NCBI GenBank assembly: GCA_011109175.1
Contig: RDEW01000037.1
Span: 159,557 to 191,575, forward strand
DNA length: 32,019 nt
Source: Dicyema japonicum
Taxonomy: Eukaryota > Dicyemida > Rhombozoa > Dicyemidae
Direction of reading: 5' to 3'
Shown here: positions 4,972 to 24,318 of the stretch, piece by piece
How positions within the stretch are numbered: the stretch's first letter is position 1
How the letters are laid out: each line of letters starts with the position of its first letter
The notes under the pieces: generated by a model
Databases searched by the model: none
The model's input: only the letters and a program-made list of their open reading frames with translations
What the model was told of the DNA's origin: nothing
Program-made: the position numbers and the translations under genes

Positions 4972-5460
4972 TTATTCTCCTCGTGAGCCTTCCGGGATCC
5001 AACGCAACTTCTCAGTGGGATGGTTTGGGGAATAGGAATTGGAGAGGGGTGATGTATACACTCTCATAAGACACGTCGTGGCTGTGTATTGTTGAGAGTT
5101 GCACTGCCTGCACATGGTTGCAAATCTTTTTTTATTTTGTCGGATACGGTCTTCAGTTGATGAGGGGATTCGTTTATCTTGTTTCCTGAGGTTACTAATA
5201 GTAGAGGCTGTTAAGGATTGAATGTCGCGGATTATTTGTCGTCCAGGACAGATTGATTCCCCATGACGCACAGACATAACTGACAGATGGCTCAATAAAT
5301 TGTTTGTACAATAATTTTAATGCTGGAAAAGGGTCTTAATGCCACCAAAAATAGATTTGATTATCCCTAACTTTCTTGAGCAGCTTCCAGAGATTCCGTC
5401 GACATGAGACGAAAAGGACGTGTGTGTCGAAGGTGATCCCCAAGATTTTCAGTTTTAATT
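4972..5460 (-). pseudogene. Non-LTR retrotransposon RT, C-terminal fragment
   Basis: Read on the - strand, the start gives KILGITFDTHVLFVS and then RRNLWKLLKKVRDN. This matches the K-I-L-G-V-T-F-D thumb entry of jockey-like RTs. After a frame break it continues ALKLLYKQLLSHLSVMSVRHG and a 107-codon ORF (4972-5295) containing CRQCNSQQYTATTC. No palm or endonuclease remains. The 5' part of the fragment lies in a 144-bp tandem duplication. Confidence 0.6.
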
Positions 5461-5646
5461 TTTATTAATTATTTTAAATTTGAAAAGTTACTAGTTAATA
5501 CTGATTATCCCTAACTTTCTTGAGCAGCTTCCAGAGATTCCGTCGACATGAGACGAAAAGGACGTGTGTGTCGAAGGTGATCCCCAAGATTTTCAGTTTT
5601 AATTTTTATTAATTATTTTAAATTTGAAAAGTTACTAGTTAATACA
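5359..5646. repeat. Tandem duplication, 2 x 144 bp
   Basis: Positions 5359-5502 and 5503-5646 are essentially identical. The unit carries the KILGITFD segment of the RT fragment plus an AT-rich flank. The near identity suggests a recent duplication or an assembly duplicate. It ends about 60 bp upstream of the SUDS3-like start codon. Confidence 0.9.
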
Positions 5647-5708: not shown

Positions 5709-6433
5709 ATGAGAGGTGATAATTATTCAACAGAATCTGTAGGTTTTAGTAATCGCTAATATCAGTAGAAACGGAGCTGGCAAGTGAGTCCCATCCATTT
5801 ATCCATTCCACAGGAGTGTCTCTCATTGATAGGTAAGGTATTTTTGTTGAGATTCAGAGTTTATTCTAAAAGACTGAGAATAATCAATGATAAACTGCTG
5901 GAACTTGAATCAGGTGTGTCTGATGACTATGACAGAATATGTGAGTGTCTTCGTCAGAAGACTGACCGTCTGAAAAGCTACCTAATCTCGCGGAATGATC
6001 TAATTGTACATTTTGCTTTTATTTGAGGTAAAAATGGTGGAGAAAGATTTTGATGAGGAGATGATGCTGACTGAGAACGAATTTGAGGTTCCTGTGTCTG
6101 CATAACTTTTAGTCAAATAAGGCTGAGATCAAGTCGAAGATTATGGCAGAGATTCAGCTATCCAACAAAAAGTTTGTTAGCCACCAGCTAGAACTGGAGA
6201 TAAACGGTGAAGATTGTTAAATTACAGTAGACAGTCCCAAATCAAAGACTGACACGACTAGAATCCTCAGGAAGAGGGATGCTAGCTATCAGTTCACGGA
6301 AAGGCGGAAAAAAGCCATGGATATCTGCTACGTCGTGGCTGAGAGTGAGCAGTCTGTAGAACATGACTTGCATGTGATAGACAACATAATTAAAGCCAAC
6401 AACACAAATGATTTTGTTTACTATAATTTATAA
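5709..6433 (+). CDS. SUDS3: Sds3/BRMS1-family co-repressor subunit, six mini-introns
   Basis: Removing six GT-AG introns (5743-5765, 5784-5813, 5833-5857, 6006-6027, 6088-6112, 6207-6227; 23, 30, 25, 22, 25 and 21 nt) gives one 192-aa protein ending at TAA 6431-6433. The core, about residues 25-130, is a charged coiled coil: RLRIINDKLLELESG..., then NKAEIKSKIMAEIQLSNKKF and LELEI, followed by TTRILRKR. This order matches vertebrate SUDS3 and BRMS1L (QQLQEG..., KENLIAELEEKKK, LTMEL, TRKLRRR). Family members scaffold the Sin3-HDAC complex in the nucleus. It is shorter than human SUDS3 (about 330 aa), mainly at the N-terminus. The ATG at 5709 is the first usable start. The second intron has no in-frame stop, so its removal is inferred from its GTGAGT donor and family alignment. 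BRMS1 or BRMS1L orthology is an alternative. Confidence 0.82.
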
Positions 6434-6434
6434 C

Positions 6435-7929
6435 TTAACTAAAATTCGCACCAAAAGTCATTTCTTTTCTTAGTTCGCTCCAATAATTCGTCTTTTGTTT
6501 ATAAATAGGCTTACTTCGGTTGCTCTTTGGACGAATGTTCCCTGTGAAGGCCAGCGGGTCGGACAAGTCAAATGTCTCCACGTTTTGGACTACATGTGGC
6601 TTATCCCTGTAGTCTGGATAGACAAGTTGATTGCAAGTTGGATTTTCTATAAGGAATTTCTTCCATTTTTTTTCTGTTCCTTGGTTGTTGGTAATTGGGG
6701 TACTTTTTGGTAGTAGAGATCTGGTCAAGTCCTTAATTTGGGGGGATGGTCGTATTGTCTTGAGTTTGGTCGGTTTTTGAGTCTCCTGTTGTCTGGGAGG
6801 TTTAACTTTTTTTTCAGTGTTGACTCCAATGCTAATATTGTCCACATGTTCTACTCCATTGGTCTGTGTCGAAATTTCCACTTCATTAGTTGTCTGAATT
6901 CCCACACTGCATCTAGAATAAAGGAATTTGGTACTTCAATCTCTTCTTTTTGGATCCAACTTTGACCTGTTTCTTTGGGATTTCATTTAGAACCTCAATT
7001 CTGCGAGTATTAATATATAAATTACGTTTTAGGAGGTTCTACGGGTGATAGAGGCCTAAGATAGCATTAACTACAATTACTCTGATGGCAACAATATTTG
7101 TTGAGGATCAACCTTCTCTTGGGTCGTTACAAACTGGTCGTCCCACATTTTAGCGTTGGAAGAGATCAGTTGCATAAAGTGGTTACGACTAAAGTGCATG
7201 CCTCTCCCCCTTTCTTCGAATTCATTTGCCAGAGCTCGCAGCTCTAAAATCTGTTCGTACCATCCGTTTGATTTCTTCTAAACGTGTTCATTAATAAACC
7301 TTTTTTTCTGTCTTGAAATCGGAAGGTGGTTTATAATTTGACTGGTACTCTGAAGTCTTTCCCCTTAATATCTTAATTTGAGTATCCATGGTGGATGATT
7401 TATCGGCTGGTTTCTATAGCAACAAACATGACAACTTTTTGACTTGAGACATGTCTAAAATTTAAAAGTTGAATTTAACCCTTGCTTCTTGTGTTATTTT
7501 CTTTTTCGAGACAAACTCAATTTCTTTGGGAGTCCAAGGTCTGTACTCTCGCTGATACTCTGACTTTTGCTAAAATTGTGTAATCTTAAATACCAATGGA
7601 ATAATTGTCGGTTTAGACTTCATTATTTTCTCCCCATCAAATGTCACCAAATTACTTGGTGGGTCAGTCTGAATGCATTTCGGAGCATAAAATTTATTTT
7701 GTTCAGTTTTTTGTTTTTTATTAGTCTTTTCTTTGGTTTTCCTTTTGACCAAGGTCTCTTTTTTCTCATTATCTTTATTATCTGCATGAATCACTGAATC
7801 AGTCTGATTGACCTGTACAACGTTTTCTTTCTCACAAATCGAAATTGTAGGTTTCTTATATAATTTGAGTGAAAACCTTAGATATGTATCTTCTAAGCTT
7901 GTAGAGAATACTATTAGAGAATTTGTCAT
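6435..7929 (-). CDS. MDM1: MDM1-like centriolar microtubule-binding protein, seven mini-introns
   Basis: On the - strand, excising introns at 7570-7593, 7455-7479, 7407-7432, 7278-7299, 7056-7080, 7001-7025 and 6913-6934 (24, 25, 26, 22, 25, 25 and 22 nt) gives a 441-aa reading frame. It carries two MDM1-type repeats, SEYQREYRPWTP and SEYQSNYKPPS. These are followed by WYEQILELRALANEFEERG and GMHFSRNHFMQL, which match the MDM1 block (ELREKAEFYRKR...GTHFSRDHLNQIL). Vertebrate MDM1 binds centriolar microtubules and restrains centriole duplication. The C-terminal exon (6435-6912) is polar and Lys/Thr-rich. The start is uncertain: ATG 7929 is the most plausible, but the frame stays open upstream to 7953 and a further 5' exon is possible. 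The third intron could start three bases earlier. Confidence 0.8.
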
Positions 7930-8325
7930 TTTTTCCAATGACTGCGTATTCAAAGTTGTCGTTATTCCATGTCTCAGGTTGAATGACTCTTTTTTTGCGG
8001 TCGAATGATGGTTCTTAAGACATTAAATATTAATTTACCAAATTTTTGGTTAGACATATCGGTAGTCCTGTTGCTACGATCTTAAGTTTATTTACTCAGT
8101 TTTAATTATTTATATTTTAATAGTTAATTTATAATAATAACTTATTAATTACAAAATCTTTTTATATACGGATAATTTCCTGACGACCATTCTCCCTGAC
8201 CAAATCCTCTGATGAAGATTGCATTATGAAAACTATTCCCCTATAGAATGAAGAATGTCTGCGACGGTAGGACATGGGACAAAAATGGAAGAAAGCTATG
8301 ACTGTTTGTGCTGGGCTTACAATGG
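7930..8325. other. Upstream region of the MDM1-like gene; no gene recognised
   Basis: AT-rich sequence, presumably holding the MDM1 promoter and possibly a 5' exon on the - strand. A short segment at about 8214-8330 has more balanced composition but no frame I can assign. Confidence 0.35.
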
Positions 8326-8400
8326 TACATGGTTCTCAACCATTTTAGAGCTCCCACCCCAAAATCTTTTTTCATAAACTCTCACACTCCAAGAACATTT
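8326..8400. repeat. hAT-like terminal sequence
   Basis: The stretch 'catggttctcaaccatttt', followed by a 'gagctcccaccccaaaatc' segment, resembles the CAGTGGTTCTCAACCTTTT ends of many hAT elements. No transposase lies beside it, so it would be a solo end or a small non-autonomous element. This is recognition by eye only. Confidence 0.35.
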
Positions 8401-8460
8401 TCAATTTATATTATTTTATCATTGAACCAAAAGTTTGCTAATCTATAAAAAATAAAAAAT

Positions 8461-8709
8461 TTAACAATCAAACACAATAAACTTCAAATTAACAAAAATA
8501 AGTGACTTGGAAAAGTATTTTATCTTAGAGGCTTCGCGTTTCCGCAGCAGTCTGAGGACAACACTGTCTGTAACCCTAGATGAAGATCTCAGGAGGATTG
8601 GAAAGTGCCTTAAAGATGGGGATGATCCATATATGCTACGGAATATGGCAACGAATCGAAAAAGATGGGCGATGTTAATTAGATTGTTACCTTTTTTGGT
8701 GAAGTGGTG
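8461..8709 (+). pseudogene. LINE family A, 3' coding end
   Basis: The frame gives YFILEASRFRSSLRTTLSVTLDED..., then GKCLKDG and LRNMATNRKRWAMLI, the C-terminal tail of family A. The usual GRPRTTLP is mutated to SSLRTTLS. It ends directly at the 5' end signature of another family A copy (TGACGTG at 8708), so the two fragments lie head to tail. No palm or endonuclease is attached on the upstream side. Confidence 0.6.
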
Positions 8710-10505
8710 ACGTGTTTCTTTTCTGTACAATGGTTAAGAAAAATATCTAAAAAGCAGAAGATACAAGAGAATATGCTTGCTCTAAAGCTTCTTACGTTCA
8801 ATGCTAGATGAATATTTATGCCTCAATTAAGAAATATTCTCTGTGATGACTTAGAAAGATATACATTGGCTGTATACAAGAGACGAAAATTACCTACTAT
8901 CTCAAAGAAAACCATGGAAAATATCGACTAATATGCCTACCCAGTGACTCAAAACACTATGGTCTTAAATTCACCATTCACAGAAAACTATAATCTGACA
9001 TCAGTGGCATTTGGCGGGTGAATGACAGGATCTGCGTAATACAGATCCGTCTGAACAACCAACGTTCCCCCTAAAAATACACTAACAATTATAAATGTAT
9101 ATGCACCACACTATGAAGAGTGGCAAAAAACCAGACCGAACTGGATGAAGCATTATCAAAGACGTACAATGAATATGAGTCGTCCTCACTTATATTCATT
9201 GCTGGTGATCTAAATACGAAAATTGGAACAAAAAAGAAGTCAGAAGATACCTTCATGGGAAGACACAGACGTGGGAAAAGAAACTTGCCTGGGACTATAC
9301 TTGGCCATTTCTGCTCGGCAAACAAATTGTTCTTGTGCAACACTGCATTCTCTCATCGTGCATTCCAAATAACCACTTGGATGGGCGAACGAAGAAACCC
9401 AGAAGGAAAATTAGTCCCTATATACAACCAAATTGATTATATTATATGCCGGATCAATGACAAATACTCTCTTATAAACGCACGCTCATACGAAGGTTCA
9501 ACAACTGTCAGCAATCACAGAATGGTTATTGTCACCTTCAGCCTGGCGAAACATCAAACATAAGAAACATAATAACATTACAAACTATAATATTGAGAAT
9601 ACAAGAAATGGATACGCAACGGAAAAAATGATCTCTAATCCAGATAATCATAAATTACCAAAAATACATCTGCTCTTATATGAAGGACCTAACACTAAGA
9701 ATTTCATGGGATCGCACAAAAAATATAATAAACGAAGCAGCAAGCCAGTACCTCGGCACGTGGGAGATGACCAGTATGGGTCGGACGATACATACAGAAC
9801 TAGCAAAAAAGTTAAAAGAAATCCATACAAGAAAACTAAACGAAAAAGACTATAACAAGAGAAAAGCCTTTCAGGGGGAGAGAGACCAAATCCGTAGAAA
9901 AATCAGGAGACTGGACAAGACACTCCACCAAGAACTGCTTCGCAAAATCAATAAAGTAACCAAACTAAAAGATAATTCACAAATGTATATGGCCGTTAGT
10001 TTACTACGCTACACAAACCGGAAGGAATGAATAATCATCAAAGACAAAAATGTCAAGACATTACTAAATACTGAAGAGCAAGCGGAGGCAATTCCAACAC
10101 ATTTTGAGAAAATTTTCAATGTGACTACAGCAATCCCCCCATTCAAAAGAAAGCCAAGACCATTGAAAGAACCAGAGAAGGAAGATCAACTGCTGATGCA
10201 GTCTGGAGTCACATATAGAGATGTGCAACACATCAAAGATATTGCAATGCCATCACATTCTGGGAATGATCTATCAAAAGCCTTTGACTCGGTTAACAGG
10301 AACAAATTGATGACAGTGCTGGATGGGTTTATTGACGAATCGAGTCTAAGAATGATTCAAATCCTTCTATCTAACACAGAGCTACTTGTGAGAATTGGAA
10401 AAACCTACTCAAGAAAATTTGAAAGAAAATTTGGAGCAAGCTAACTTTTTATCTTATATTTTTTGCTGCACATGCGGGGCTCTCGTAAACGTGCTAATAA
10501 TAATA
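8708..10505 (+). pseudogene. LINE family A copy: APE endonuclease to partial RT
   Basis: This is the most complete + strand copy. The endonuclease starts near 8776 (LKLLTFNAR), continues with QETKITYYLKE, SKHYGLKF and IWRVNDRICVIQI after several frameshifts, then 9120-9563 in one frame: LIFIAGDLNTKIGTK, FSHRAFQITTWM, IDYIICR and SNHRMV. These match the APE-type motifs GDxN, T(W), DYI and SDHR (here SNHR). A linker follows (9680-10030). Then come DLSKAFDSVNRNKLM (RT fingers) at 10121-10444 and an internal deletion removing the palm. The 3' end is 'tgctaataataataag' near 10491-10506, a (TAA)n tail. Multiple breaks make it inactive. Confidence 0.8.
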
Positions 10506-10509
10506 AGTC

Positions 10510-10660
10510 GCTTGGATGAATATTTTATCTTAGAGGCTTCGCGTTTCCGTGACCGGCCGAGGACACCACTGCCGGTTATCCTAGATGAAGAGCTCAGGAG
10601 GATTGGAAAGTGCCTTAAAGATTGCACGTGCTTTGTCATGATCTTGACATCGCGTATGTG
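10510..10660 (+). pseudogene. LINE family A, 3' coding fragment
   Basis: EYFILEASRFRDRPRTPLP and VILDEELRRIGKCLKD repeat the tail seen at 8507-8620 with about 85-90% identity by eye. It follows directly after the (TAA)n tail of the previous copy. After KCLKD the similarity is lost, so it is truncated at both sides. Confidence 0.6.
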
Positions 10661-10894
10661 CCTATAAAAATAATAACAAGTGGCTTTTTGTTCTTGTTTA
10701 TTTTTAATGATTTGGTCGAATCTTGGGAATTTGTTTCTAATTGCAATACAAATTTCATGTTTTGGATTCAAACAATTTCTGTATTTTTAATTGCCAAAAG
10801 AGAGCTGAATCCTGATTCACACAAATTTGCCATTGCAAATGGAACAAGTTCATATTCATTCTCTACCATCATATATTCACGTCCAGCTGCCGCC

Positions 10895-11570
10895 AACTAA
10901 ATTTTCAGCCAATTTTAACAATTTGTGGACGATCGCTTTTCGTTACGAGACATCCCAAAAATACTTGGAGACATTTTCGACTAACTCTGACTTTCTTAAA
11001 ATATGTGGAGGAACAATGCACAACGGCTTCTCGCAAAATTAACATACTGAAAGCTGTGTCAGGCCATTCTTTCGGTCAAATCAAAGAGAGGCTATCATAT
11101 ATAAATAATTCATTCGAACCACACTTATTTATTCAAGTCCTTGTTGGTCAACTTTTATCTCCCTCACTTCTTTCGACAAACTAAAAAAAGTCCAAAACAT
11201 CGTGATCAGAACAATTACCGGATGTCTCAAATCAACCCCTATTGATCATCTTCATAGGAAATTAAAAATTTTCCCCATTGCAGACCATACAGACCATCCC
11301 TGTCCTTCTCTATGCAAAATAAAAATTATTATGAAAACACAAACCTTTCTCGAATGCTATCATCCATCTCTTCCAGCCCCAATGTCCGGGATCGTCTAAA
11401 ACTGATAAATGATTTTGTTTCTAAGAGAACTATCCGAAAATAAAATACTACGTTGGCCCCCTCTTCAGATAAACCAATCATAATCTTCTCTTACGAGGGA
11501 CATCCAGATAAACCTGGCTCGTTTACGATGTGAGTACCACAGTCAAGAGCGGAGGCTCCCAGAAATCTGA
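10895..11570 (+). pseudogene. Jockey-like LINE RT, thumb and C-terminal end
   Basis: Scattered frames give RDIPKILGDIFD (K-I-L-G-x-x-x-D), ILKAVSGHSFGQIKERL, then VQNIVIRTITGCLKSTPIDH followed by LHRKLKIFPIADH. The last part is INLARLRCEYHSQERRLPE. This is the standard order of jockey-clade RT C-termini, ending in an RLRCxxH block. Frames break at least four times. A related minus-strand copy sits at 26791-27330. Confidence 0.65.
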
Positions 11571-11579
11571 CAGGTATAT

Positions 11580-12175
11580 TTGGTTCTGTGCCGAACTAGG
11601 AGATGTACCAGGACAAGAGAAGAGGTGACCAAAACTCCTTATTTCAAGAACTATTCTGTATTAAGCGCCTCCAGCTCAGTTAAGGGTGGTTTACTTATTC
11701 TTATACACATTTTCATTCCTTTTACTGATTCTTTAACTTTTATTAAATTTTTCATAGCTGAGGATCTTAATATTATAATTATATCTGAGGATCTTAATAT
11801 GGAAATTTCATTTATCCGGGTGAATAAATCCTGTTTCACTATTTTCAATACATTCCACTGATATTGTCTTCCTAACGTAATTCCACTTTTTCTATTGAAA
11901 GTTGAATCTTATGTGATGATTTTAATGTTCATCATACTGCATGGTTATCCTTCAACAAATCTGATAAACGTGGAATGCAAATTCTGCATGATATGGTGGT
12001 TTTAGTTGTTCTGAATAATCCTGTTCTACATACTCGTTGTGCTCTAAATTCTGATCATTCTAATTCTCAAATAATCGCTCTCAATGGAATGTCCTTTATG
12101 ATTTCCCTACTGACCCATTACTTACAACCATCAACATACAAAGAGGAGGATCACGAAGATGTATATAATTTATAA
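11580..12175 (+). pseudogene. Jockey-like LINE endonuclease fragment
   Basis: Frames show YFKNYSVLSASSSVKGGLLI and LIHIFIPF. These are followed by DFNVHHTAWLSFNKSDKRG, MQILHDMVVLVVLNNPVLHT and LNSDHS. The DFNxHHxxW, NNP and SDH boxes match the APE endonuclease of jockey elements. An insertion-like repeat 'ctgaggatcttaatat' (twice near 11758-11802) interrupts the domain. It lies after the C-terminal end of another copy, so this looks like a rearranged or nested insertion. Confidence 0.65.
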
Positions 12176-12419
12176 ACGTGGAAAGTGGGATTTTACAAAA
12201 ACGTTATATCGCGTACTATAACCTTTCTTGTATACCTGTTGCTCTTTTGATGTTGCTGTCGAGTTGTTCACAAACTGTCTAATTGCTGACAAAGAAAATT
12301 TATTGAAATTATTAATTTTTTCAAAGAACGTAGGAGGATCAAATCAATGAACTCTCGAGAGGGTAGAATATCTTTCTGAAATGAATAAACGTATTCTTAA
12401 AATACAATACCAATTAATG

Positions 12420-12955
12420 GAATGACTATACTCTCAATATACTGGATCCTGTGTCTTTTAGAGAACCTTCATTCAACTGGTCTCTCAATAAAAAATTGTG
12501 TTATCTTTCAGTTGCCAACTTATTAATGGGTGCGAAGATAAACCACCATCCTACCCCGAATGGACTCTGCTGTAAGACATCGCATGCTCTGAAACCACAA
12601 TCCTAATTACTCAACTTGTTGACAACTCTTAAAACTCGAATGAAAAAAAGGACCTGACGGTCTTTCCATACACCATTTTAAAATCTAGGACCGATTGGAC
12701 TTTATGTTTTAACCGATTTAAGGGAACACCCAATTAATCACGGACCAGTACCTATGCTCTGGAAGAAATCCACAATTATTCCCATTTTGAAGCCTAATGA
12801 GACCCTTCTGATCCTTCTTATCTTCCAATTTTCCTTTTGTCTGTTGTTTCGAAGATTGCTGAGTAATACTATTTTTAATAAAACCGTATTTATCATTTTC
12901 CAAACCCCAACATGTCTTTATCATCCGATTACAACCTCGAATTGTAAATTATAAA
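12420..12955 (+). pseudogene. Jockey-like LINE, RT N-terminal fragment
   Basis: The fragment contains GPDGLSIHHFK, LGPIGLYVLTDLRE and PVPMLWKKSTIIPILKPNE across two frames. This is the RT fingers entry (GPDG...LK...W..a.IIPI.KP). It probably continues the endonuclease fragment at 11580-12175, as order and spacing fit one decayed element. The palm is absent. Confidence 0.65.
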
Positions 12956-12959
12956 GAAA

Positions 12960-13480
12960 ATGATGCTATTTCGTGCCAGCTGATAGATTCTTGCACGTGT
13001 TTCGAAAGATGATTTCGAAAAAACAATAAAACTCAAAATATCAACAGTCTGTTAAAGCTGCACAGAAATTATAGTTTCCGAAACATGAAGAGAAATTGGT
13101 AGAATTGATGGAGGTAGTAGAGTCTATAGAAAAATCAACTTTCTAGGTGGCTTTCTGAAAATATAGTTTCTTTTTAAAATATAACGGGTTTTTTTAAATC
13201 CATGGATATTGGGATTATAAAATCTTTCGAGAGTAATTATACAATACTCAGTCTATTTGACAGAATTATTATTATTATTAATAGCACTTTCGAAGAACCA
13301 AATATGTAATTTATTTAATTAAGGTTCCGCTTGTGCCGTATTTTTCTTCAGGTTATTCTTTCTTCCACAGGTTATTCGGTTGAGCTGGTGACGTGGCTCT
13401 ATTGCACACGTCTTTTTCATGCTTTTCTTGGGGATCTTTCACAGAATTATTGGAAACTCATAATATTTCGGTATATAATT
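12960..13480. other. No gene recognised; contains a LINE-A 5' end signature
   Basis: AT-rich sequence. At 13389-13400 it carries TGACGTGGCTCT, the same signature found just upstream of family A endonucleases at 8708 and 16842. No endonuclease follows here, so it would be an isolated 5' fragment. Confidence 0.4.
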
Positions 13481-13481
13481 C

Positions 13482-13850
13482 TTACAAGAAATGGAATTTA
13501 AAAGATACGGTCTTTTTTACAAAAATGACTTGGGAAGACATATTGGAAGAAACGATAAGGAATTGATTCAAAATTTTAAATAACTCCAATAACGAAAATC
13601 TTGAAATTGATAGAACAAACGTTAACGATCCTTTTATAGTTGAAGATTTTATAAACATTGTATACACGGAGAATGAAACATTTAATGAAAATTCTTTAGG
13701 ATTCGGAAAATAGTGAACAAGAATAAAAAAAATACCTGTAGATATTGTAGTTAGATTAACTGCAATAGAAAGGGAACTCTTTGACAATGTTGAAAATGAA
13801 GTTTCTCTAATTTCTTTAACAAGGCATTTTTAAAAATTATTTGTTCATTG
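13482..13850 (+). pseudogene. Decayed coding segment, possibly a DNA-transposon tail
   Basis: The + strand has broken frames rich in Glu, Asp and Asn: MTWEDILEE, NNSNNENLEIDRTNVND, EDFINIVYTENETFNE, then VVRLTAIERELFDNVENEV. Acidic tails of this type close pogo/Tigger transposases, but there is no diagnostic motif. The opposite strand ORF (13482-13787) is hydrophobic and is most simply a shadow. Confidence 0.25.
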
Positions 13851-15990
13851 TTCTTAAAGATTATTGATTTTTTCAAATTGGCCACAAAATTCTAAGGAAA
13901 AAATGGCAAATATGCTAGGGTCGACTGTAATAACTTTTAGAAGCAAAAACACTTAGTGATTTTGTACAGTATTGATTCCAAAGTAAGATGAGATGATACG
14001 ACCATTCCATACTCTAATATCTCCGAACAGGCTAGATAGTATCTTAGTATAGTAAAATTTTATTTTTATCAATCGTTGCTGCTATTAAGAGCAAAATTCC
14101 GTATATTAAATACGATATCTATGCTTGATGTGGTCAGGGGATCTATTCGGAAGGAAAGTTAGAGAAAACATTATTTTTAGACGCCGAAGGTTGGTTTGAG
14201 TTGTTTGTTCGTAGGTGAAGGTGGATTAAGGGTGGTACGGGTTTTTCCTTCGTTTAGTTTAGAACGAATGTCCTTTTGAGGCGGAGAGCTTTTACTTCAC
14301 TTTTCGAGCTCCGAGTTCCTGGTATCTGACTATAAATTGATAATCAGGAAAGTGAATCCCATCCATGAAAGTGCCGGTGTTGTTATTTATGTACGAGAAC
14401 CTTTTCTAATATATTCACGATAAAGGCTAAGCGCGTATGGTGCAAAACTGAACAGACATACCAAGTTTTTTATTGAGATTACCTAATGGTATCATCGATT
14501 GTATTGGAAAGCGCCTAGACGGCCTTCGGGAATCTACCGGAATAGTCCATGAAGAACAGTGTTTGGAAATTAGACGTAAATCTTTGTATATAGTGAAAAA
14601 AAATCTTTGTATATAGAATTCCTGCATGCGCAAGAGATTCCTCTTACACAGTCTAAGGCAGAAATGGTAGTACTATGCTTCAAGTACGCGACTTAAGAGT
14701 ATCGCATACCGGAGTAGCTACTGCAAGATAAAATAAAAATTTAGTGTTTCCGATTATTGACCGAGGAACATTTTTTGAAATAATGTCAATTTTGTAAAAG
14801 CCAGTTACACCAATTTAAAATGAGATACAATTTAATTATCCCCGAATACACCAAGAATAAAAGTTGATAATTAACAATTAATTTAGTGTGTACCATATAC
14901 TCAGAGATAAGTCCTTCTAAGTTCATCAGAACCAAAATAAGAAAACTATCAGTTTTTTGCAGAAACCCCTCTAAGGAGTTGAATAACAATTGATCCTTTG
15001 AACAAAGACATATACATAGAAATTAGTTGGAAGAAGTAAATCAACCTTTGATATATCTTTTAATCTGCGAAGGAGTGAGTTCTGCCTAAGCAGAGGGTTA
15101 TATAATGGAAACCTCACTACTCTTCGGTGGAAGGATTAAAAAACTGGAAAATGGGGTTGTTATCTAAAGAAAAACTGGTCTCTACTTCTAAAGTTGATTA
15201 ATTTTCCAACAAATTTAATCCAGTTGTCAGGTTGGCTCGACGTTCCTCACTTGATCCTACACAATAGGTACATAAACATTCACTAAAAACAGTTTTCTTT
15301 TTATCCAAAGATCTCAGTTATTTCCCATTTTATTTGTAATGAATTATCTTGATTCTTTACCAACTACGAATGCTATTAGCAAAAATATTAATGATATTGT
15401 ACATAGTATTGCAATCAGTCGAGAAAATCTATAATTATATGAAATTTATTTTAATCTGGAAAAACTTTAAAATGTTATATGAGGTAATTATGTTACTTGT
15501 TCTCATTCACGATTGCGTATTGATTGAGGAATCGATAATGATTAGTTGAGGGAAATTAATTACCATAAGTCTTAAATGAAATTAATAACGATATTTTAAA
15601 TAATATTTCGTTTTTTATGAACTTTTAAATCAAAAGTAAATGATAATATTGTAGGCATAAAAACGACCTTGTAAGGGTATATTGAAAAAATGAAATTATC
15701 ATAAACATTGAAAACAAAAATATTTAATCTCCTTTTTTCTGTCAGTGAACCTTATGTTGAAAAAACAATAAATATACTCATAAAAGTAACCATAAAATAA
15801 ACATAAATGTAATAATAGAGATCGTCACATAAAGTAGGCTTTTTTAGTTTTCGTAGAATTTATCTTATTAACTACCCTAAACTGTTCTCGAGTGTTTAAA
15901 GTGAAGCTGGCATATATAATAATTTTCAAATAGGAAATGTCTAATAATTAGAACAATTTTATAACAGTTAAAATTATTGCACTTAACATA
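13851..15990. other. No gene recognised; long AT-rich stretch
   Basis: Only short ORFs with biased composition occur. Around 14500-14580 a frame reads KRLDGLRESTGIVHEEQCLE. A related 'tagtccaygargaac' sequence occurs near 19252, so this may be an unclassified repeat family. A short direct repeat 'aatctttgtatatag' occurs twice near 14578-14617. I see nothing further in 14640-15990. Confidence 0.35.
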
Positions 15991-16053
15991 GCATGCCATT
16001 TAAAATAATTATAAAAATTTTAATTTTTGAAAAAAGAAAACAAGCAAAGTCAG

Positions 16054-16432
16054 TTAAGAGGCCAGGATTGCGACTAATCACCACCATTTTCAGCCTTACC
16101 CAGGGTCCTTCGAGGGGCTTGAATCTCTTCGAAGTAAGCCTTTGTCCGATACTGGATCTTCCACAAATCCAAATACTTCATATCTTTATATGCTTTATTT
16201 AATGTAATTTTTATTCTGCTGCGAATCTGAGCAGAATAGTTCAAAACCATTGTTCTTAATAATTGTAGATGTAGTGCTAATTGATTGTGTTAGTATAATT
16301 CCCTCACATTCAAAAGAACTAATTATATCACATAAGACATTATTTGTTGTAGCACTTTTAAATGTCTTTGAAAGGAGCTGTCTCATTGAGCGCATTTCCT
16401 TGCAAAGTATCAGGGGAAATTTGTTCTCAACT
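16054..16432 (-). CDS. Unrecognised gene fragment with two mini-introns (3' end)
   Basis: On the - strand, removing 16277-16307 (31 nt, contains TACTAAC) and 16074-16099 (26 nt, GTAAGG donor) joins three frames. The product ends with LRTMVLNYSAQIRSRI, NKAYKDMKYLDLWKIQYR, KAYFEEIQAPRRTLVAILAS and TAA at 16054-16056. About 106 residues are read back to an acceptor-like 'ctctcag' at 16433-16439. It is helical and basic, with no signal peptide or motif I recognise. A possible upstream exon on the same strand, about 16590-16720 (FKILTNLMGFMQYWSC), could not be joined. Splice signals like those of the named genes suggest a host gene rather than a transposon, but it could be a broken copy. Confidence 0.5.
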
Positions 16433-16841
16433 CTGAGAGCAGCCAGTAATAGTTAACTGTTAGTTTTTAAATTTATTTTGGTCTTTTTAAAAAAAATTTC
16501 TTTGATGAATCGAAGAGCATCTTAGAATATATTGATTTAGTGTCAAGACGTGAAATCAAACAAGTTTTATATTAATTGATTGTGGTTAAAAGTTTATAGC
16601 ATACTTAAGCAATTAATGAAAATACAGCTCCAGTACTGCATGAACCCCATGAGATTTGTCAGAATCTTGAAAGACGATCTTTGCCTAATCACCTCCTTCC
16701 TCCTAAGGCTGTGATCGATAGTGTTGACCACTCAGATAAATGCGAGTGAATGACTTGAATAAATTTTCAAAATTGTATATATCCCAAAATAATTCATAAT
16801 CATGCTAAAAATAATTCATAATCATTACTTGTTTGAACTGG

Positions 16842-17215
16842 TGACGTGGTTCTGAATTATTATGTCTATTTCACACATAACAATTGATCTCTTTACATTG
16901 GCGTCATTCAACGTCTGTGGATTGAAAGAAAAACATAAAAGGGGGATTTAATAAGTGACTTAATATTATACAAAGTCACTATATGCAGTATACAGGAGAC
17001 TAAAGTGAAGGATGCAGTTGAAGAGAAATACGGAGAGTTTAGACTTATACTACTAGACTCCGAATGCAACCACTACGGACTTGGCTTTGCTATACATAAA
17101 TGTCTTGATGGGAGAATCCACAGAGTGTGGAGAGTTAATGACAGAATAGCAGTACTCCAGATTAATAGTGGGAGGACTAATAATTCTTTTATATCCATAA
17201 TTAATATCTACGAAT
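16842..17215 (+). pseudogene. LINE family A endonuclease, 5' fragment
   Basis: It starts with the family signature TGACGTGGTTCT. Then it reads FTLASFNVCGLKEKHKRG, CSIQETKV, and 17005-17215: LILLDSECNHYGLGFAIHK, RIHRVWRVNDRIAVLQI and ISIINIY. It lacks the GDxN and SDH boxes, which are present in the copy at 8708. Stops and a frameshift break the first part. It is joined at about 17215 directly to a later part of the same element. Confidence 0.75.
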
Positions 17216-17221
17216 TCCGAA

Positions 17222-17448
17222 TTCGATACGCCTGCTAGAAAATGCACCTGCGGAGCTTGAGAAATGGTTTCTCAGCGTAAATGTTAACAAAACTGAAATT
17301 ACGGAAATCAAATCAGAAGACGATATTACCCATGAAAGATGGAGACATACTAATAAGCTTGGCTCTCTACTAGGAGACGCTGAAGATGTACTAAGGAGGA
17401 AAACACTGGCAAATGCGGCAATGGCTAAACTGAAGAAAGGATGACTAA
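17222..17448 (+). pseudogene. LINE family A RT palm/thumb fragment
   Basis: The frame reads LLENAPAELEKWFLSVNVNK, TEITEIKSEDDIT, and HTNKLGSLLGDAEDVLRRK. This matches 28776-29203 (read on the other strand) almost residue for residue. Everything between the endonuclease start and this segment is missing, so the copy is an internal deletion. It runs into an assembly gap. Confidence 0.75.
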
Positions 17449-17481
17449 NNNNNNNNNNNNNNNNNNNNNNNNNNNNNNNNN
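17449..17481. other. Assembly gap (33 N)
   Basis: The run of N lies directly after the family A RT fragment. An ORF read through it on the - strand is not meaningful. Confidence 1.
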
Positions 17482-18205
17482 GAGAGCTCAAACTACTGTA
17501 TGGTGCTCCATTCAAAGTTATACCTATATGTGAGACGATGTCGTTTCGAATTAAGAGGAGAAAGGTTTAGAAGCGATTAGTAATTTTATAGCATTCAAAT
17601 GACTTATAATAATAGTATTCACTCAAAACGTACGATAATAATAAGTCTTTTTTTATCTTTTAGGAAAATAGCTACAAGTTCCTCTAACGTTCAAGATTTG
17701 AATATTACATAAATTTTATTGAGAGTCCATTATTTTCTTTATTTAACCAAAAAGTGGAACAAGAGGCTACAAATATCTTGAGAGGATAAAGATATTTTGT
17801 AAAGATTACCACCTCAACATTACCGTAACTAACGGCGTTAAAAAGACAGTATTTAAAATTGTATCTCTTTGAAATCCATAATCTCACATATGTTATCAGA
17901 ATCATTGCTAATTATGGTAGGTTGGGGATTCAGATATTCAAGGTATCTGGAAGGAATTTAGTAAAGAGGAGTCGTCGTATATTTGTGAAATTAGGGCAAA
18001 TCAATTAAAATTGGATATTAACTTTGTGATGCAATCAAAATTCTAGGAATCAATAATTATCCATTTTTCAAATGAATTGACTTGCTAATGTCGAAAAGTT
18101 TGGTTTTGTATGATTCATGAGATCTCAGAATTGTACATCAATTGTAATATTTATAGGGAACTCAACCATTACAAGCAGTCGGAGACTATGGTAGACAAAT
18201 AATTA
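17482..18205. other. No gene recognised
   Basis: AT-rich sequence. A 'gataataataag' stretch near 17630 resembles the LINE family A (TAA)n tail and may mark the end of the preceding copy. No reading frame can be assigned. Confidence 0.35.
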
Positions 18206-18207
18206 AC

Positions 18208-18750
18208 CTTAGAAACTAAAATAAAAATATGTTCTGTTGGAATTTGTGGGTCTGATCTAACATTGTGGAAAAATAATAAAATAGGAAGCGAAAAGAATGT
18301 TCGACCTTTTCGAATTGGGTATGAATCTGCTAAAAGAGGTTGGAATAAATGTAACAATTATAAAATTTGGTAGTCCATTAAAGCATTTTGAGGAGATCGA
18401 GTCGCCATTGAAACTTTTTTTTAGCAACATTAAGGTATAGGTTCTTCCACAAGTCCAGAGCTCCCGATTGTGTCATAGATTCAGTCCTGAACCTTTATTG
18501 AATTAGAAATCGTTTGTTGATGATAATTCGTGTAAAGTTTATCTTTCTATTTTTGTTTATTAAGATATTGTGTAATATGTGTACTTATTACATTTCACTG
18601 CAATTAATGCGGTTTTGTGGTTATTCCAAATTAATCCATGAGGTTTCTAACGGATCTGTAAAACTGTACTTATCTCACTACTCGTTGGACTATTATAGAT
18701 CGTTGAATATCAGTGAAGAATCTGATTGTCACCATGAATCAGACGCTTGA
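18208..18750 (+). pseudogene. Sorbitol-dehydrogenase-like relic (zinc ADH superfamily)
   Basis: The frame reads KIKICSVGICGSDLTLWKNN and then IGYESAK. It matches the N-terminal zinc site of sorbitol dehydrogenases (SVGICGSDxHxW...GHE). The His of GHE has become Tyr. After a frame slip, FGSPLKHFE and, one base out of frame, GDRVAIE give the VGSxVKHLxxGDRVAIE block. A compressed ATLRYRFFHKSR...PDCVIDSVL (about 18427-18490) and HEVSNGSVKL...HYSLDYYRSL (about 18630-18720) could be the later blocks. Frameshifts, a lost zinc ligand and deletions indicate a dead copy. The first two blocks are the strong evidence; the later ones are tentative. Confidence 0.55.
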
Positions 18751-19520
18751 TGTACTAAACGAAAAAATAAATAATATTTATTATCTAACTATAAGTTATC
18801 CTGGAAGATGGGCTTTGTTTCCCATTGGATTCGTCAAAGTCATATACGGAAATGATTGGGGATAAATCTCACAGTTCTCCTAAATGAAACAATTTCTATT
18901 TCTAAAAAACAAATATTAATACTAATCAAACACAAATCATAATAATCCATTAACTTAGTCTATCAACCTTCTACCAATTAGCTTGGAAGGTAATCTGTTG
19001 TAGGTTGAGGTGATGACGTAGCTCTGATGCATTATGACAGTTTGAGTAAGCTAACGTTGTAATCCATCTGGAATAACTTGGTAGGTCTTACTTAAAGAAC
19101 TGAAACAGCATTTTAGAAAACACGTGATCTTAGTAATTAAATTTAATTGAAAATTATTGGAGCTAAAATGCGGTTTGTGGGAATAAAACTGTTTTCTATT
19201 ATCCTCCTGAATTGTAAGTTGCACAAGAGGATTCGTACGACGTGAGGCGGATAGTCCACGAGGAACGACGTTGAAAGTTACACGATCTCAAGGGTTCTCT
19301 TTATGTGAGTTGTATATGGATAGTTCTATTTACTTCCAACTGCCTCAAATACTCCCTTTGGGATGTAGTAATGATACAACCTCATCACATACGGAATAAC
19401 ATGGACCTTGCATATTTTGATTTTTATATTTTGAATACAAAAATTAATCAAAGACTAAAATAAATTATTTTTAAAACGATAATTGAAATAGTAAATAATC
19501 AACTATTTTTCAATCAGTTA
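18751..19520. other. No gene recognised; contains a LINE-A-like 5' signature
   Basis: TGACGTAGCTCT at 19014-19025 is a variant of the family A 5' signature, without a following endonuclease. Near 19250 a 'tagtccacgaggaac' segment resembles one at 14540. Nothing else is assignable. Confidence 0.35.
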
Positions 19521-19521
19521 A

Positions 19522-20320
19522 CACATGAATTGGATACGCCGAACGATATTTCGAGGCAACGTGACTGGGATGAGGTATACTCCAAGAATATCTTCGACGT
19601 GCTAAAGTCTGAGGCCAATTAGCATCGTCTTGCATGCCTCGTGTCATGGGAGTGATTGGATGCACTCCCGTCTTCCTCCCTGGGGACCCTATTGGACGAT
19701 GACTGCATTCGGATTGGGATCGCACAACGCCTGGGAGTTAATGTTTGCGTCGAACATTAATGTCGTTGTCGAGGGATCGCCGATGCCAAAGGGCTGCATC
19801 CGCTTTCGTGCAAAAGGAGTTCAGGCAGAACACCCCGCCATGCTGCTATGAACAACATTATCATGCGTGCTCTTGAAGCTGCAGGCTTCCCGGCAGTACT
19901 GGAGCCCGTGGGATTGGACCGCGGAGACGGGAAAATTCCGGATGGGTTAACTATCTTTCCGTTCACTGAGAGAAAATCGCTCGTATGGGACTGCACTGTT
20001 GTGGATTCTTTCCCGAACTCGATGATACTCAGCTCGGCGCAGTCTACTAGATCGGCAGCAGATCTGGCCGAGAAAATCAAGATTAAAAAATATGGCGAAA
20101 TGGAGACAGCTTTCGTTTTGTCTGATCCAGCGGGAAGTATGGCAATCGAGACGTCTGATCCAGCGGGAAGTATCGCATTTTTTTTCCTGAAGTAAATCAG
20201 GGGGAAATTGGCCCACTGTAAGAAAGACGCGCGGGAAGCGGTCTGGCTTAGGCAACGGATAGGATTGCAGTTGTCCGCGGAAACGCTTACTCCGTAATGT
20301 CGGGCGCTCTTCCCCATAGT
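19522..20320 (+). pseudogene. Retroelement C-terminal region: zinc-knuckle plus endonuclease-like domain
   Basis: A GC-richer island. The frame gives RQRDWDEVYSKNIFDVL, DDDCIRIGIAQRLGVNVCVE, a C-x-C...GLHPLSC knuckle, RHAAMNNIIMRALEAAGFPA, VLEPVGLDRGDGKIPDG and VWDCTVVDSF. It then runs KYGEME... and (after a slip) RIAVVRGNAYSVMSGALPHS. This architecture occurs at the C-terminus of RT-encoding elements in many invertebrates. The IPDG...WDCT pair resembles a PD-(D/E)xK nuclease core. At least three stops or frameshifts are present, and SDPAGS is locally duplicated. No RT domain lies upstream. Confidence 0.65.
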
Positions 20321-20506
20321 TAATAAATAATATTTTATTGATAATAATTAATGTCATTAAAAAAAGTTAACACATCAATACCATAATGTAAAAACCGCAT
20401 GAAAAGTAATGGCGATGGAACTACCAAGACTGTTGGGGAAATAGTACACCTCAAAGGAATCGTATATAATATAGTAAAATAGTAAGATTGTGTTATTAAA
20501 TCACAG

Positions 20507-22513
20507 TCAGTCATCCAACTCAAAAATAATACAGTTTGTAAGAAAAACATCATTTTCGCAGAAATCCTCTTTCATGTTACCACCATAATTCTGTTGAACA
20601 TCATTAAGCGGGGTAGTCACAATTTTAGATACATTGATCGATTTATCCTTGAAATTAGAAAAATAAAATAAACCAATAAATTAGACCTCTTTCTCTGACG
20701 TCTGTTTAATCTAGGAGAGGAAGGGTCAAAAAGTTGGGAAACCGTAGACTTTGTGTGATATGACAGTTGTCTTGTGGAATTGCAAAATGACACAGTCTTT
20801 TCTCTAAAATCATTCAGTCACAAACCTTTTAAAAGTAGGCGCCGCAGTCTCAGATACAGAGAGCGACCTAAGAATACCATGCGCAGCATCCGCTTCTTCA
20901 TTCTACAGACCATAACTACGAACCAGGGTACCCTGACAATGCTCAGTCGATTCGGAGCCATTTCTCGAACAGAAACGTCATCTTCCGCAAGAATATTTTC
21001 AAATCCATCAAATGAGGGCGGTGTGAAAAACTATCTTCTTTAAAAAAACCACCTGAACCAAATCATCTGAATTTCTTCCAAACCGCAACACACGTGAGAT
21101 CCCTTCTTCACAAATGAACCTCACAGTCACAAGCAGGTTCTCTTGGGTGAGATCAGTCGTGTGAGTCAGAGAAGAAACCCATTCCAAACAGAGAGTTAGT
21201 CCATAGCTTAGAGGGAACCCTCCCTGTCCCACCGAAATAAAACGAATAGTAAGAAGTTGCCCTTCATTGTTTATCCACAGTTTATCCTCGCAAATCCCAG
21301 AGACTTTAACGAGCACGTGCAAGGTTTTACCCTCTATTCGACAGTCAAACGGGGCCAAATGATAGTTCCTCCAATCAAAGAACTCATGGGGGTCACTTCC
21401 CCTCTCCTGCTCTTCAAAATTAAAGGGGATCATTTGGACCTCTTCAATTGGTCCCTCTTTTAATATTTGGTCCATCTTCTTGGATGACTGCTCTTCACTG
21501 TCATCAAAAACTCCTTCAGTATGTTCATCAACCTCATCGGCAGGGCTTTCTGGGGCATTCCTTACTTTGTGAGGAAGGATTATAGGAAGGGTCACAATGA
21601 GGCGCTTCTGTGTCTTGTCAAAAACAGCCGAACCAGCCTCCTCGTCCACAGAATAGTTAAAAGGGATCACCATGTGGTAGTTCCATGGAGCACATGCCTT
21701 TAGAAGGCCGTGCCGCTCAAAGACCTCAAATTCCACGTCCGAAGAGTTCGTTATTTCTGGGAGGGATACAATCACTTGCAATTCCCGAGGCCTTTCACGG
21801 TCTGAGGGATTACTCAGGCGGTCGTAATCATGTAACTCCACAAAGGAGCGGTACTTTATTACATACTCTGGCTGGACCACTACTGGGTTGGGTGGATTTA
21901 AGTCGGGTACCATCTGTTCCAGGGTTGGAGGGTCAAGGGGCTTGTTATCCTGGCTTATTATGGAAGCTGTGGGTGTCCCCTTGTAAGGGATTTTCAAAAT
22001 TTTGGCACTCTTTTGGATCACTGATTGGCTGAAAGCCTTGTTGATTCCGTCCACAGCGACTTCGATGGTCATTTTCTTGAATGTTACATTTCGCGACAGG
22101 GATAGGGCGTCCGGATGGAAGACTACATCAAAAACTGTGTATTTTTTGGTATTTTTTGAAACTCCTTCCTTCGGACGGAACAGAGAATGCGGAATGGTCC
22201 ATGTTGTCCCAGTTTGGTTAATTTTTTCTCGCTTTAAAGATGGTTTCTCTATGTTTTTATTGGAGCACATGTTTATGTAAACAAGTTGGTCTGAGATTGT
22301 CAGAGCCTTCACACAGAATCCAGGGTCAGGATGGATAAACTGGACTTCTCTGCCACGCTGTTTTTCCAGTTCCGTTATTTCCTCCTCATATCGACGTCGG
22401 TTTTCAGGGTCTTTCAACTCCTCAGCGTAATCAGCCAGAAGGTTACGAAATTCTTCGTTTTTCAGAGCTTTGGCAATACTGTCGAGCTCATCCTTCGATA
22501 AAGAACAATCCAT
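20507..22513 (-). CDS. DNAAF2: Kintoun/DNAAF2 dynein-arm assembly factor, four mini-introns
   Basis: Exon 1 (22513-21053) encodes 487 residues. Excising 21031-21052, 20903-20931, 20804-20825 and 20648-20673 (22, 29, 22 and 26 nt) extends the protein to 635 aa and a TGA at 20507-20509. The N-terminus ITKAL-like SIAKALKNEEFRNLLADYAE and DPENRRRYEEEITELEKQRG, then VQFIHPDPGF, is the PIH1 domain (to about residue 180). A CS-like domain follows (about 210-320, YVIKYRSFVELHDYD...). The recovered C-terminus ends FLTNCIIFELDD, as expected for Kintoun. The family works with HSP90 co-chaperones in the cytoplasm to preassemble axonemal dyneins. Without the introns the ORF would stop at residue 501 with a false tail. 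Additional in-frame introns in exon 1 cannot be excluded. It is divergent with the patatin gene. Confidence 0.9.
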
Positions 22514-22690
22514 GAACTACCAAGCCAACAGAAAATTATTTTAATGAATTTTTGGTTGACCGGTAAATAAAATTAATATAATAATTATTTAATTTAGTCA
22601 ACTTGACTTTGTTCATCAAATTATTATAAAATTATTTATTTTATTAAAATCGGATGATCTGGCATTGTAAAATTTAGCTTATTTGATGTG
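22514..22690. promoter_or_regulatory. Shared 177-bp divergent promoter region
   Basis: This is the only sequence between the DNAAF2 and patatin start codons, so both promoters and 5' UTRs must fit here. It is strongly AT-rich. GTTGACCGGTAAA at 22555-22567 resembles an imperfect RFX X-box (two facing half-sites), which would suit a ciliary gene. That assignment is weak because both half-sites have mismatches. Confidence 0.5.
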
Positions 22691-24318
22691 ATGAAAAACG
22701 GCATCAAAAATCAAGGAAAAAAATTGGAAACTGTCACCTGGATGTTCAATAGAGACAATTTTGACGCTTATATAGACAGTATTTACCGTAAAACACGGAA
22801 AATAGCTGATAAGTACATATCTTCTAAGGAATTCGATATTTCTACTTCAAAATCTGGCAAAGTGGAGGGAGAATTTCAAAATTATCGACTTCTACCTGCA
22901 AATGTTGGCCATAAAATTCATTTGGGTTGCTCTACCAGTACTACACGGAGAATATATACTCAGGAATTGGAAGAACTGCTCCAACCTCTCTCAAAGTCTA
23001 CTGAGGCTGAGATTTTGGTTAAGAATTTGGAAGAAATCAGGAGTTTGTTGTTAAAATATCCTGAATTGGCCAAGCTAGCTTACTCAGTACATAGAATTTA
23101 CATTTAGAATGGGATAATGCCCTACGTAGCTCGTTTAATTGACAGTGAGATCCAAGAAGAACACAATCTTGGATCCCAACTGCTTGCATTGATTGGTAAA
23201 GTCCCTAGACTCAGATTCAGGGGAGTAAGAGTTCTTGCTATTGACGGAGGTGGAATGAGGTGGGAATTTAGTCATTTTAGAGGTGTGGTTTCCCTCAGGA
23301 TCCTTCAAAAAATCGAAGAATTGTCAAATGGAAAGCTCATTGATATGTTTGACTTGGTTTGTGGGGTCTCCACAGGCTCGTTGATCGCCTCTAGTGTATT
23401 TGGTAGAGAAGTTCCCCCAGAAATGATTATTAAACTGTACAAGGAACTTGGAAGTGACATTTTCGTGAGGAACAGTTTTATTGGAGCTGGAAAGGTTGTT
23501 TTTTCTTCTTCTTTCTACGATTCCTCAGTTTTTACCCGAATTTTACAGTTTTGAACTTTTTTGATGTTTTAGAGACAATTTTGGAGACCAGAACTTGATT
23601 GACTTTGTAAAGACCATGAGATCTCCAAAAGTATATGATTCTGCTTTAAATTTAGCTTTCCTTACTGTCAACTCTTGTAAATGGCCGAGAAATGGAGCAA
23701 TTTGCTTTCAGGAACTACAACCCCCCATTTGATAGATTTACAGAGTTCAGGGGATCAGTCAACCATCCTGTTTGGCAGGCAATTCAGGCCTCGAGTGCGA
23801 TTCCTTTCCTTTTTGATGAGCTCACTGTGAACGGTCTTACCTTTCAGGATGGGGGACTCATGCATAACAACCCTACTCCTGTCGCCATCAGTGAGGCCCA
23901 CAGTCTGTGGCCTTCTGAGTCCTTGCACTGTGTAGTCTCTATCGGCACTGGACGGGCTTTTCCCTCTTCTTTCTCAATGGGGACTCATCCTTCCAGTCTG
24001 GGTTTAAAGGACAAATTCAATATGATACTGAAATGTGCGGCTGATCCTGAACGTAATTATGTATGTGATTTAGCCATGCATGGTGTGCTGAGAAGATTAT
24101 TACCTTCGTCGGTGTATTTCAGACTTAATCCTATTCTCTCTCAGAACATTAGTTTTGAAGAGACGTCTGAAGAGAAACTTGACCAGTTGATCTATGAAAC
24201 CGACATTTACTTGCGAAAGAATGAAGTTAAACTTAAAAGGTTGATTGCAAAATTAAGGGAGCCACGGACTATCCAACAAAGACTGAGGGACTTTCTGATT
24301 GGCTCTAAATATACTTAA
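22691..24318 (+). CDS. PNPLA8: Patatin-like phospholipase A2 (PNPLA8/iPLA2-gamma-like), four mini-introns
   Basis: Removing 23087-23107, 23260-23280, 23548-23572 and 23631-23655 (21, 21, 25 and 25 nt) gives 511 aa with TAA at 24316-24318. The oxyanion loop is DGGGMRG (residues 178-184), the nucleophile GVSTG has Ser213, and the catalytic Asp is in DGG (Asp356). VLAIDGGG and STLVNGREMEQFAFRNYN, WQAIQASSAIP and VVSIGTGR match PNPLA8 in order. The family hydrolyses membrane phospholipids, in vertebrates at mitochondria and peroxisomes. It is shorter than human PNPLA8 (782 aa). The N-terminus (1-132) is helical, without an obvious targeting peptide. ATG 22691 is the first in-frame ATG. The second intron is in frame and lies inside the oxyanion motif. 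PNPLA8 is the nearest family I recognise; exact orthology is not proven. Confidence 0.88.

Follow-up and report, generated by a model that had tools for sequence, protein, structure and literature searches.

The stretch of DNA considered here, referred to as the window, comprises 32,019 nucleotides (nt) of contig RDEW01000037.1 (assembly GCA_011109175.1, positions 159,557 to 191,575, forward strand). It has a GC content of 0.360 and is part of an assembly of 64.67 Mb in 191 contigs. Four genes, referred to as SUDS3-like, MDM1-like, DNAAF2-like and PNPLA8-like, are found between positions 5,709 and 24,318 of the window, and three-frame translations reveal that coding stretches are broken by short GT...AG segments. 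In an original prediction, made from the letters alone, these segments were described as miniature spliceosomal introns, 21 of them in the four genes and two in a further gene. Here, the segments are analyzed using two parsers. The first (signal-free) is a Viterbi parser that uses only stop codons, codon usage and GT...AG segments of 15–60 nt, with a fixed penalty and no length preference. The second (signal-aware) adds terms for splice signals and intron length, trained on other genes in the assembly, and is used with a score threshold of 12. To test the resulting junctions, Pfam, sequences from the PDB and other genes of this genome were used.

The PNPLA8-like gene (22691..24318, + strand) encodes a patatin phospholipase of 511 amino acids and harbors four introns. 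Those at 23087..23107 (21 nt, with an in-frame stop), 23548..23572 (25 nt) and 23631..23655 (25 nt) are found in both parses; the stop-free intron at 23260..23280 (21 nt) is found only in the signal-aware parse because codon-only parsing misses stop-free introns with a length divisible by three (3n introns). Removal of the introns restores the frame, as had been predicted, i.e., the spliced product matches Patatin, its sole Pfam family, with 108.4 bits, compared to 40.5–44.6 bits for unspliced single pieces. Retention of the intron at 23260..23280 lowers the score by 13.7 bits, to 94.7 bits, and would split GGGMR|GVV. The iPLA2beta sequence (6aun) aligns to residues 173–493 and thereby spans three of the four junctions; the first junction is located upstream of the alignment. 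The name PNPLA8, rather than that of the ankyrin-bearing PLA2G6, is presumed to apply.

The SUDS3-like gene (5709..6433, + strand) was delineated by the signal-aware parse together with a search for gene ends. It extends from an ATG at 5709, which is also where the original prediction starts, to a stop at 6433 and contains five introns. Three of these, at 6006..6027 (22 nt), 6088..6112 (25 nt; 6094–6121 in the signal-free parse) and 6207..6230 (24 nt), are found in both parses, and two were added by the gene-end search with weak scores (5743..5765, 23 nt, and 5833..5857, 25 nt). The product of the first parse did not match Sds3 in Pfam, and the single PDB sequence matched at E ≤ 1 is SDS3, at a weak E of 0.079; the identification of this gene as SUDS3 is suggestive only. 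The MDM1-like gene (6435..8014, − strand) contains eight introns, all found in both parses, at 7855..7876 (22 nt), 7570..7593 (24 nt), 7455..7479 (25 nt; 7443–7479, 37 nt, in the signal-free parse), 7407..7435 (29 nt, uncertain), 7278..7299 (22 nt), 7056..7080 (25 nt), 7001..7025 (25 nt) and 6913..6934 (22 nt; 6907–6934, 28 nt, in the signal-free parse). Its first exon is uncertain and ends at 6435 and 6439 score alike; the products match Pfam MDM1 with 30.1 and 29.6 bits (cut-off 27).

The body of the DNAAF2-like gene (21008..22513, − strand), a PIH-like protein of 502 amino acids, is devoid of introns in both parses, and this single exon matches PIH1 with 152.2 bits and PIH1_CS with 63.9 bits. 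Because the four PDB matches of the product are all to PIH1D1, the name DNAAF2 is one that we assume, following the original prediction. An optional 3' extension (20507..21052, − strand) would add four candidate introns (21031–21052, 20903–20931, 20804–20825 and 20648–20673); the gene scores 83.5 with this extension and 86.7 with the intronless end. The claim that such introns are found in every recognizable host gene was thus overstated.

In the signal-free parse at a penalty of 4, the window yields 14 introns (eight in the MDM1-like gene and three each in the SUDS3-like and PNPLA8-like genes; the DNAAF2-like gene has none). At a penalty of 8, two remain in the SUDS3-like and three in the PNPLA8-like gene and none in the MDM1-like gene; because introns are lost at this penalty, the evidence from codons alone is modest for the SUDS3-like and MDM1-like genes. 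The signal-aware parse of the whole window gives 15 introns, and the two at the 5' end of the SUDS3-like gene raise the total to 17; the three intron-bearing genes score 26.1, 39.2 and 59.0 in this parse. All 17 introns are GT-AG, with lengths of 21 (two), 22 (four), 23 (one), 24 (two), 25 (seven) and 29 nt (one), i.e., a range of 21–29 nt and a mean of 23.8 nt (21–31 nt and about 24 nt in the original prediction). The number is 17 introns in three genes, where 21 in four had been predicted; a count of 21, with a mean of 24.0 nt, is reached only upon inclusion of the four optional introns of the DNAAF2-like extension. No further multi-exon parse at or above the threshold of 12 was obtained in the window, and the two introns suggested for an additional gene were not recovered.

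The same size class is observed in the conserved genes examined elsewhere in the genome. In a set of nine CCT/HSP60 genes, assembled from 30 merged loci, 51 of the 68 introns of the signal-free parse are 21–26 nt long and 25 are exactly 23 nt, compared to a background of 13.6% of 3298 GT..AG pairs. Six of the nine predicted products were scanned and match PF00118 over almost the full length with 391–514 bits (61–195 bits for the best unspliced single pieces), and the genes score 57.6–135.8, compared to at most 22.5 for 45 dinucleotide shuffles. A second set, outside the training of that parser, was composed of 31 loci, namely 12 of 142 kinase matches, 15 of 21 AAA loci, SF1 and three patatins; the six AAA loci left out are further pieces of the same genes. 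Here, 81 of 147 introns are 21–26 nt long (14.0% of 6545 GT..AG pairs), and the other 66 are scattered over 16–60 nt. We attribute most of the latter to noise in the parse, since upon application of the signal-aware parser to all 40 loci, 229 of 238 introns (found in 38 loci, median 23 nt) fall at 20–29 nt. With a flat length prior the peak stays at 23 nt (60 of 220 introns). Locus L072, considered as an intron-lacking paralogue of L060, was rejected as such, i.e., it is a diverged copy at the DNA level, with 823 of 1138 aligned positions identical; the gene is presumably that of a proteasome-type AAA ATPase.

The sequence signals at the intron ends are weak. The position preceding the donor is a G in 31/51 CCT and 49/81 second-set introns, position +3 is mostly A or T, and a G at +5 is rare (12/51 and 22/81, respectively). 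Complementarity to U1 is low, on average 4.65 of 9 positions in 55 CCT introns, compared to 3.61 of 9 for other GTs of the same genes. Upon alignment of the introns at their 3' ends, an A is seen at −7 in 26 of the 51 CCT introns (p 5e-5), and in the second set an A is found at −7 in 45/81 (p 1.9e-8) and at −8 in 39/81 introns. In the 132 introns of 21–26 nt pooled for the branch statistics, an A at −7 or −8 is present in 111, compared to 411 of 876 decoy GT..AG pairs from the same genes. The context TNAY with its A at −9 to −6 is found in 87 of the 132 introns (34.9 ± 5.0 upon shuffling; 110/876 decoys). Of the 88 introns that have one TNAY candidate only, 58 have its A at a distance of 16–17 nt from the 5' end and 63 have it at −7/−8; candidates are ambiguous in four of the 132. 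The classical CTRAY motif was rejected as the branch signal, occurring in 15/132 introns where 7.5 ± 2.6 are expected. In the window itself, the signal-free parse yields 14 introns, 12 of which have an A at −7/−8 (P 0.003). The adenosine reads as a branch site that would be fixed by position.

A second regularity concerns stop codons. Among introns of 20–29 nt, 58 of the 63 with a length of 3n contain an in-frame stop, compared to 64 of the 166 others (Fisher p 2.6e-14); in the remaining two frames of the same 63 introns, stops are found in 32 and 37. A bias could arise if stop-free 3n introns had been missed, and therefore intron-like GT..AG candidates were counted inside exons. At the threshold that retains 75% of real introns there are 15 exon candidates at 21, 24 and 27 nt, where the six neighboring lengths predict about 11–12, and over 18–30 nt there are 23 3n candidates compared to 20.0 expected. 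At a threshold of 90%, 74 such candidates are found over 18–30 nt (61.2 expected), with the excess originating from lengths of 18 and 30 nt. If stop-free 3n introns occurred at the frequency expected from composition (45%), about 36 missed ones would be anticipated. An equivalent pattern in ciliates has been ascribed to nonsense-mediated decay (PMC5014332).

Components of the major spliceosome are found in the assembly. Rfam models identify 11 matches to U1 RNA genes (E 7e-9 or better), with ACUUACCUGG near the 5' end, which is canonical, in seven of eight aligned copies and ACUUACUUGG in one. Twenty-two of 25 U2 matches and nine of ten U6 matches exceed the Rfam gathering score, and GUAGUA and ACAGAGA, respectively, are intact in both aligned copies of each. 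The SF1 gene, with its own introns spliced, encodes an SF1-HH domain (96.5 bits) and a BBP-type KH domain (69.2 bits). There is no sign of an unusual splicing system in the parts of U1, U2, U6 and SF1 that were examined. The last stem-loop is gapped in seven of the eight aligned U1 copies (L036–L043), and six of the 25 U2 matches are clustered within about 111 kb of contig C115 (about 851000–962500).

Collectively, this computational evidence makes it highly probable that the segments are spliceosomal introns of the U2 type, shortened to about 23 nt, and that the host is a dicyemid (phylum Dicyemida, taxid 10215). The spliceosomal part of the original prediction agrees with the genome-wide size class, the positional A, the U1, U2 and U6 genes and the SF1 gene. 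The segments would then be ordinary U2-type introns that have shrunk. In such a system, U1 would recognize little past (G)GT(A/T), after which SF1 and U2 would locate the A by its position within a loose TNAY context. Both the distance of 16–17 nt from the 5' end and that of 7–8 nt to the 3' end may act as rulers; together these would fix the total length at 22–25 nt and therefore little sequence information would be required. Splicing errors would probably be cleared via translation, through the stops in 3n introns.

Several observations weigh against this interpretation. The refined SUDS3-like product reaches only 21.1 bits with Pfam Sds3 (E 3.4e-4, cut-off 25.4). When the window was reversed as a control, two parses exceeded the threshold, one at 12.1 without introns and one at 14.4 with three introns, compared to 26.1, 39.2 and 59.0 for the three intron-bearing genes. 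The later parses relied on a codon usage trained in part on parsed genes. All 11 U1 matches fall below the Rfam gathering score (best 69.0, cut-off 69.5). The introns used for branch statistics are 132 of 215, the remainder having been left out, and in 40 of these 132 no TNAY is found at −10 to −5; signals beyond (G)GT and AG are weak. Alternatively, the interruptions could be insertions, deletions or assembly errors in broken gene copies that mimic introns. Faults in the assembly do exist within the window, where single Ns are found at 26985, between copies of 178 bases that are 94.9% identical, and at 28969, between copies of 193 bases with 99.0% identity; at both sites, overlapping ends of contigs were probably joined during assembly, which would make the copies false duplications. 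However, the interruptions are all GT...AG, cluster at 22–25 nt in essential genes genome-wide and share a positional A, and because random insertions and deletions would produce neither such ends, nor a size cluster, nor a shared A, we consider this explanation extremely improbable.

An explanation in which the segments are eliminated from DNA, in the manner of internal eliminated sequences (IES-like), or skipped by the ribosome, instead of being spliced, could appeal to the circular contigs reported in a dicyemid assembly (PMC6543705) and to a cited title on developmentally regulated circular DNA in Dicyema japonicum. However, the GT-AG ends, the G preceding the donor (31/51 and 49/81), the branch-like A, the concentration of stops in 3n segments and the presence of U1, U2, U6 and SF1 in the genome all fit RNA splicing, and in dicyemids spliceosomal introns of coding regions were described from genomic and cDNA analysis (PMC2222250); elimination or skipping is thus very improbable. 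The introns may also be real and belong to a host other than a dicyemid, i.e., another reduced animal or a protist. While ciliates have reached the same intron size (PMC12862383), long conserved frames are translated here under the standard code, and in orthonectids the median intron is 57 bp (PMC6543705), which leaves another host unlikely. Among the lineages named in the original prediction, dicyemids probably fit best. The MDM1-like gene, given the distribution of its family, suggests an animal host. The published Dicyema japonicum genome is 67.5 Mb with a GC content of 36.7% (PMC6736024), values close to the 64.7 Mb of the assembly and the 0.360 of the window; the assignment to dicyemids is based on these two measures together with intron size and gene content.

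The window contains 84 open reading frames of at least 75 amino acids; among the 20 scanned, RVT_1 is the sole family above its cut-off, at a reverse transcriptase fragment (28967–29359, − strand; 44.8 bits, cut-off 29.6). Scans of the window with Rfam (at gathering scores) and for tRNAs gave no match. Exact or near-exact tandem pairs at 5358–5645, 27813–27996 and 29482–29659 (periods 144, 91 and 88) are either recent duplications or further assembly joints.

Elsewhere in the genome, genes for components of a minor spliceosome are found, i.e., single matches to U12 RNA (L076, 1501–1629, − strand; 85.4 bits, cut-off 53) and U6atac RNA (L092, 1501–1598, − strand; 37.0 bits, cut-off 33). The pattern TATCCTT-N(0,30)-TTCCTTRAC has nine matches in the genome (four for the reversed-pattern control), seven of which were examined. 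At four of these places (L085, L089, L090 and L091) no coding support was seen, and they were rejected as U12-type candidates. At the other three, AT-AC introns have the 5' site ATATCCTTT, the branch site TTCCTTAAC, coding context and matching frames. Removal of the 48-nt intron in an ArfGAP gene (L087) raises the parse score from 17.1 to 33.1; the spliced product matches ArfGap with 89.9 bits, and a piece of the gene scores 25.0 bits when spliced, compared to 16.3 bits for the same piece unspliced. With the 52-nt intron of a polyprenyl synthase (GGPS-like) gene (L088), the parse score increases from 17.6 to 28.1 and the spliced product matches polyprenyl_synt with 59.8 bits; the shorter GGPS-like piece alone gave no match at all. 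In a phospholipase C gene (L086), removal of a 58-nt intron hardly changes the parse score (9.2 to 9.4). Its PI-PLC-Y score is 123.5 bits for the spliced product and 57.7 bits with the intron kept; the downstream exon alone gives 85.3 bits and the piece joined across the junction 94.3 bits. Each of the three genes contains, in addition, U2-type introns of 22–26 nt, about half the length of the AT-AC introns.

A separate minor spliceosome thus appears to process a small number of AT-AC introns that are about 50 nt long. We lean, with some reservation, toward a picture of two spliceosomes and two size classes, in which U2-type introns of 22–25 nt would be defined by two rulers and shaped by selection for stops, and a handful of U12-type AT-AC introns would retain the full consensus, would have ceased to shrink at about 50 nt and are perhaps among the shortest minor introns in animals. 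In a pan-eukaryotic survey of minor introns from 2023, the shortest mean length is that of Blastocystis, just under 42 bp; the survey excluded introns shorter than 30 nt, and "dicyem" does not occur in its main text (PMC10639083). Annotation tools that bar introns shorter than 30 nt would miss nearly all of the introns found here.

Miniature introns in dicyemids, which are minute parasites of octopuses, are already known, having been in print since 2007. Reported lengths are 26.2 ± 1.9 nt (n = 16) for spliceosomal introns of coding regions, from genomic and cDNA analysis (PMC2222250), 24.93 ± 2.51 (n = 41; PMC2483917), a median of 27 bp with about two thirds shorter than 30 (PMC6543705) and a mean of 38.2 bp (PMC6736024). 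The published introns of Dicyema acuticephalum, D. japonicum and Dicyema sp. are similar to those described here in being spliceosomal and about 25 nt long, and differ from them in that here the mode is 23 nt and a positional, branch-like A is seen at −7/−8. An earlier study, based on common motifs in 41 introns, found "no signature of branch points" (PMC2483917, 2008); the branch-like A becomes visible once introns are aligned by position rather than by motif. Within the reach of the searches, the present analysis adds the branch ruler, the bias toward in-frame stops in 3n introns and the minor spliceosome, all of them computational. In the accessible passages of the open-licence literature searched, no report was found of a dicyemid minor spliceosome or of in-frame stops in dicyemid 3n introns.

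Similar solutions are found in other eukaryotes. Introns of Paramecium and other ciliates are also about 25 nt long, and their 3n introns are rich in in-frame stops (PMC5014332, PMC12862383). In contrast to ciliates, where 3n introns are reported to be under-represented in most of the short length classes surveyed, there is no plain deficit at 24 nt here (80 introns of 23 nt, 47 of 24 nt and 26 of 25 nt), and while splicing in P. bursaria is reported to depend solely on U2, the present genome has U12 and U6atac genes. In Stentor coeruleus, introns of 15–16 nt likewise have a branch A defined by position, without a strong consensus; 15-nt introns make up 90.90% of all introns and have the A at their 10th position (PMC9505925). 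These introns are shorter, with the A 6 nt from the end, compared to 7–8 nt here. The introns of the Bigelowiella natans nucleomorph are equally tiny, vary little in size and carry weak signals (PMC2222250, PMC2483917), and differ in being 18–21 bp long and residing in a reduced algal nucleus.

The question of how an animal spliceosome locates both ends of a 23-nt intron can now be tested. The coexisting U12-type introns would offer an internal control because their presence suggests that the two spliceosomes have different minimum lengths within one nucleus. If the two-class picture is correct, the minor spliceosome persists even in a parasite of roughly 30 cells with a strongly reduced genome.

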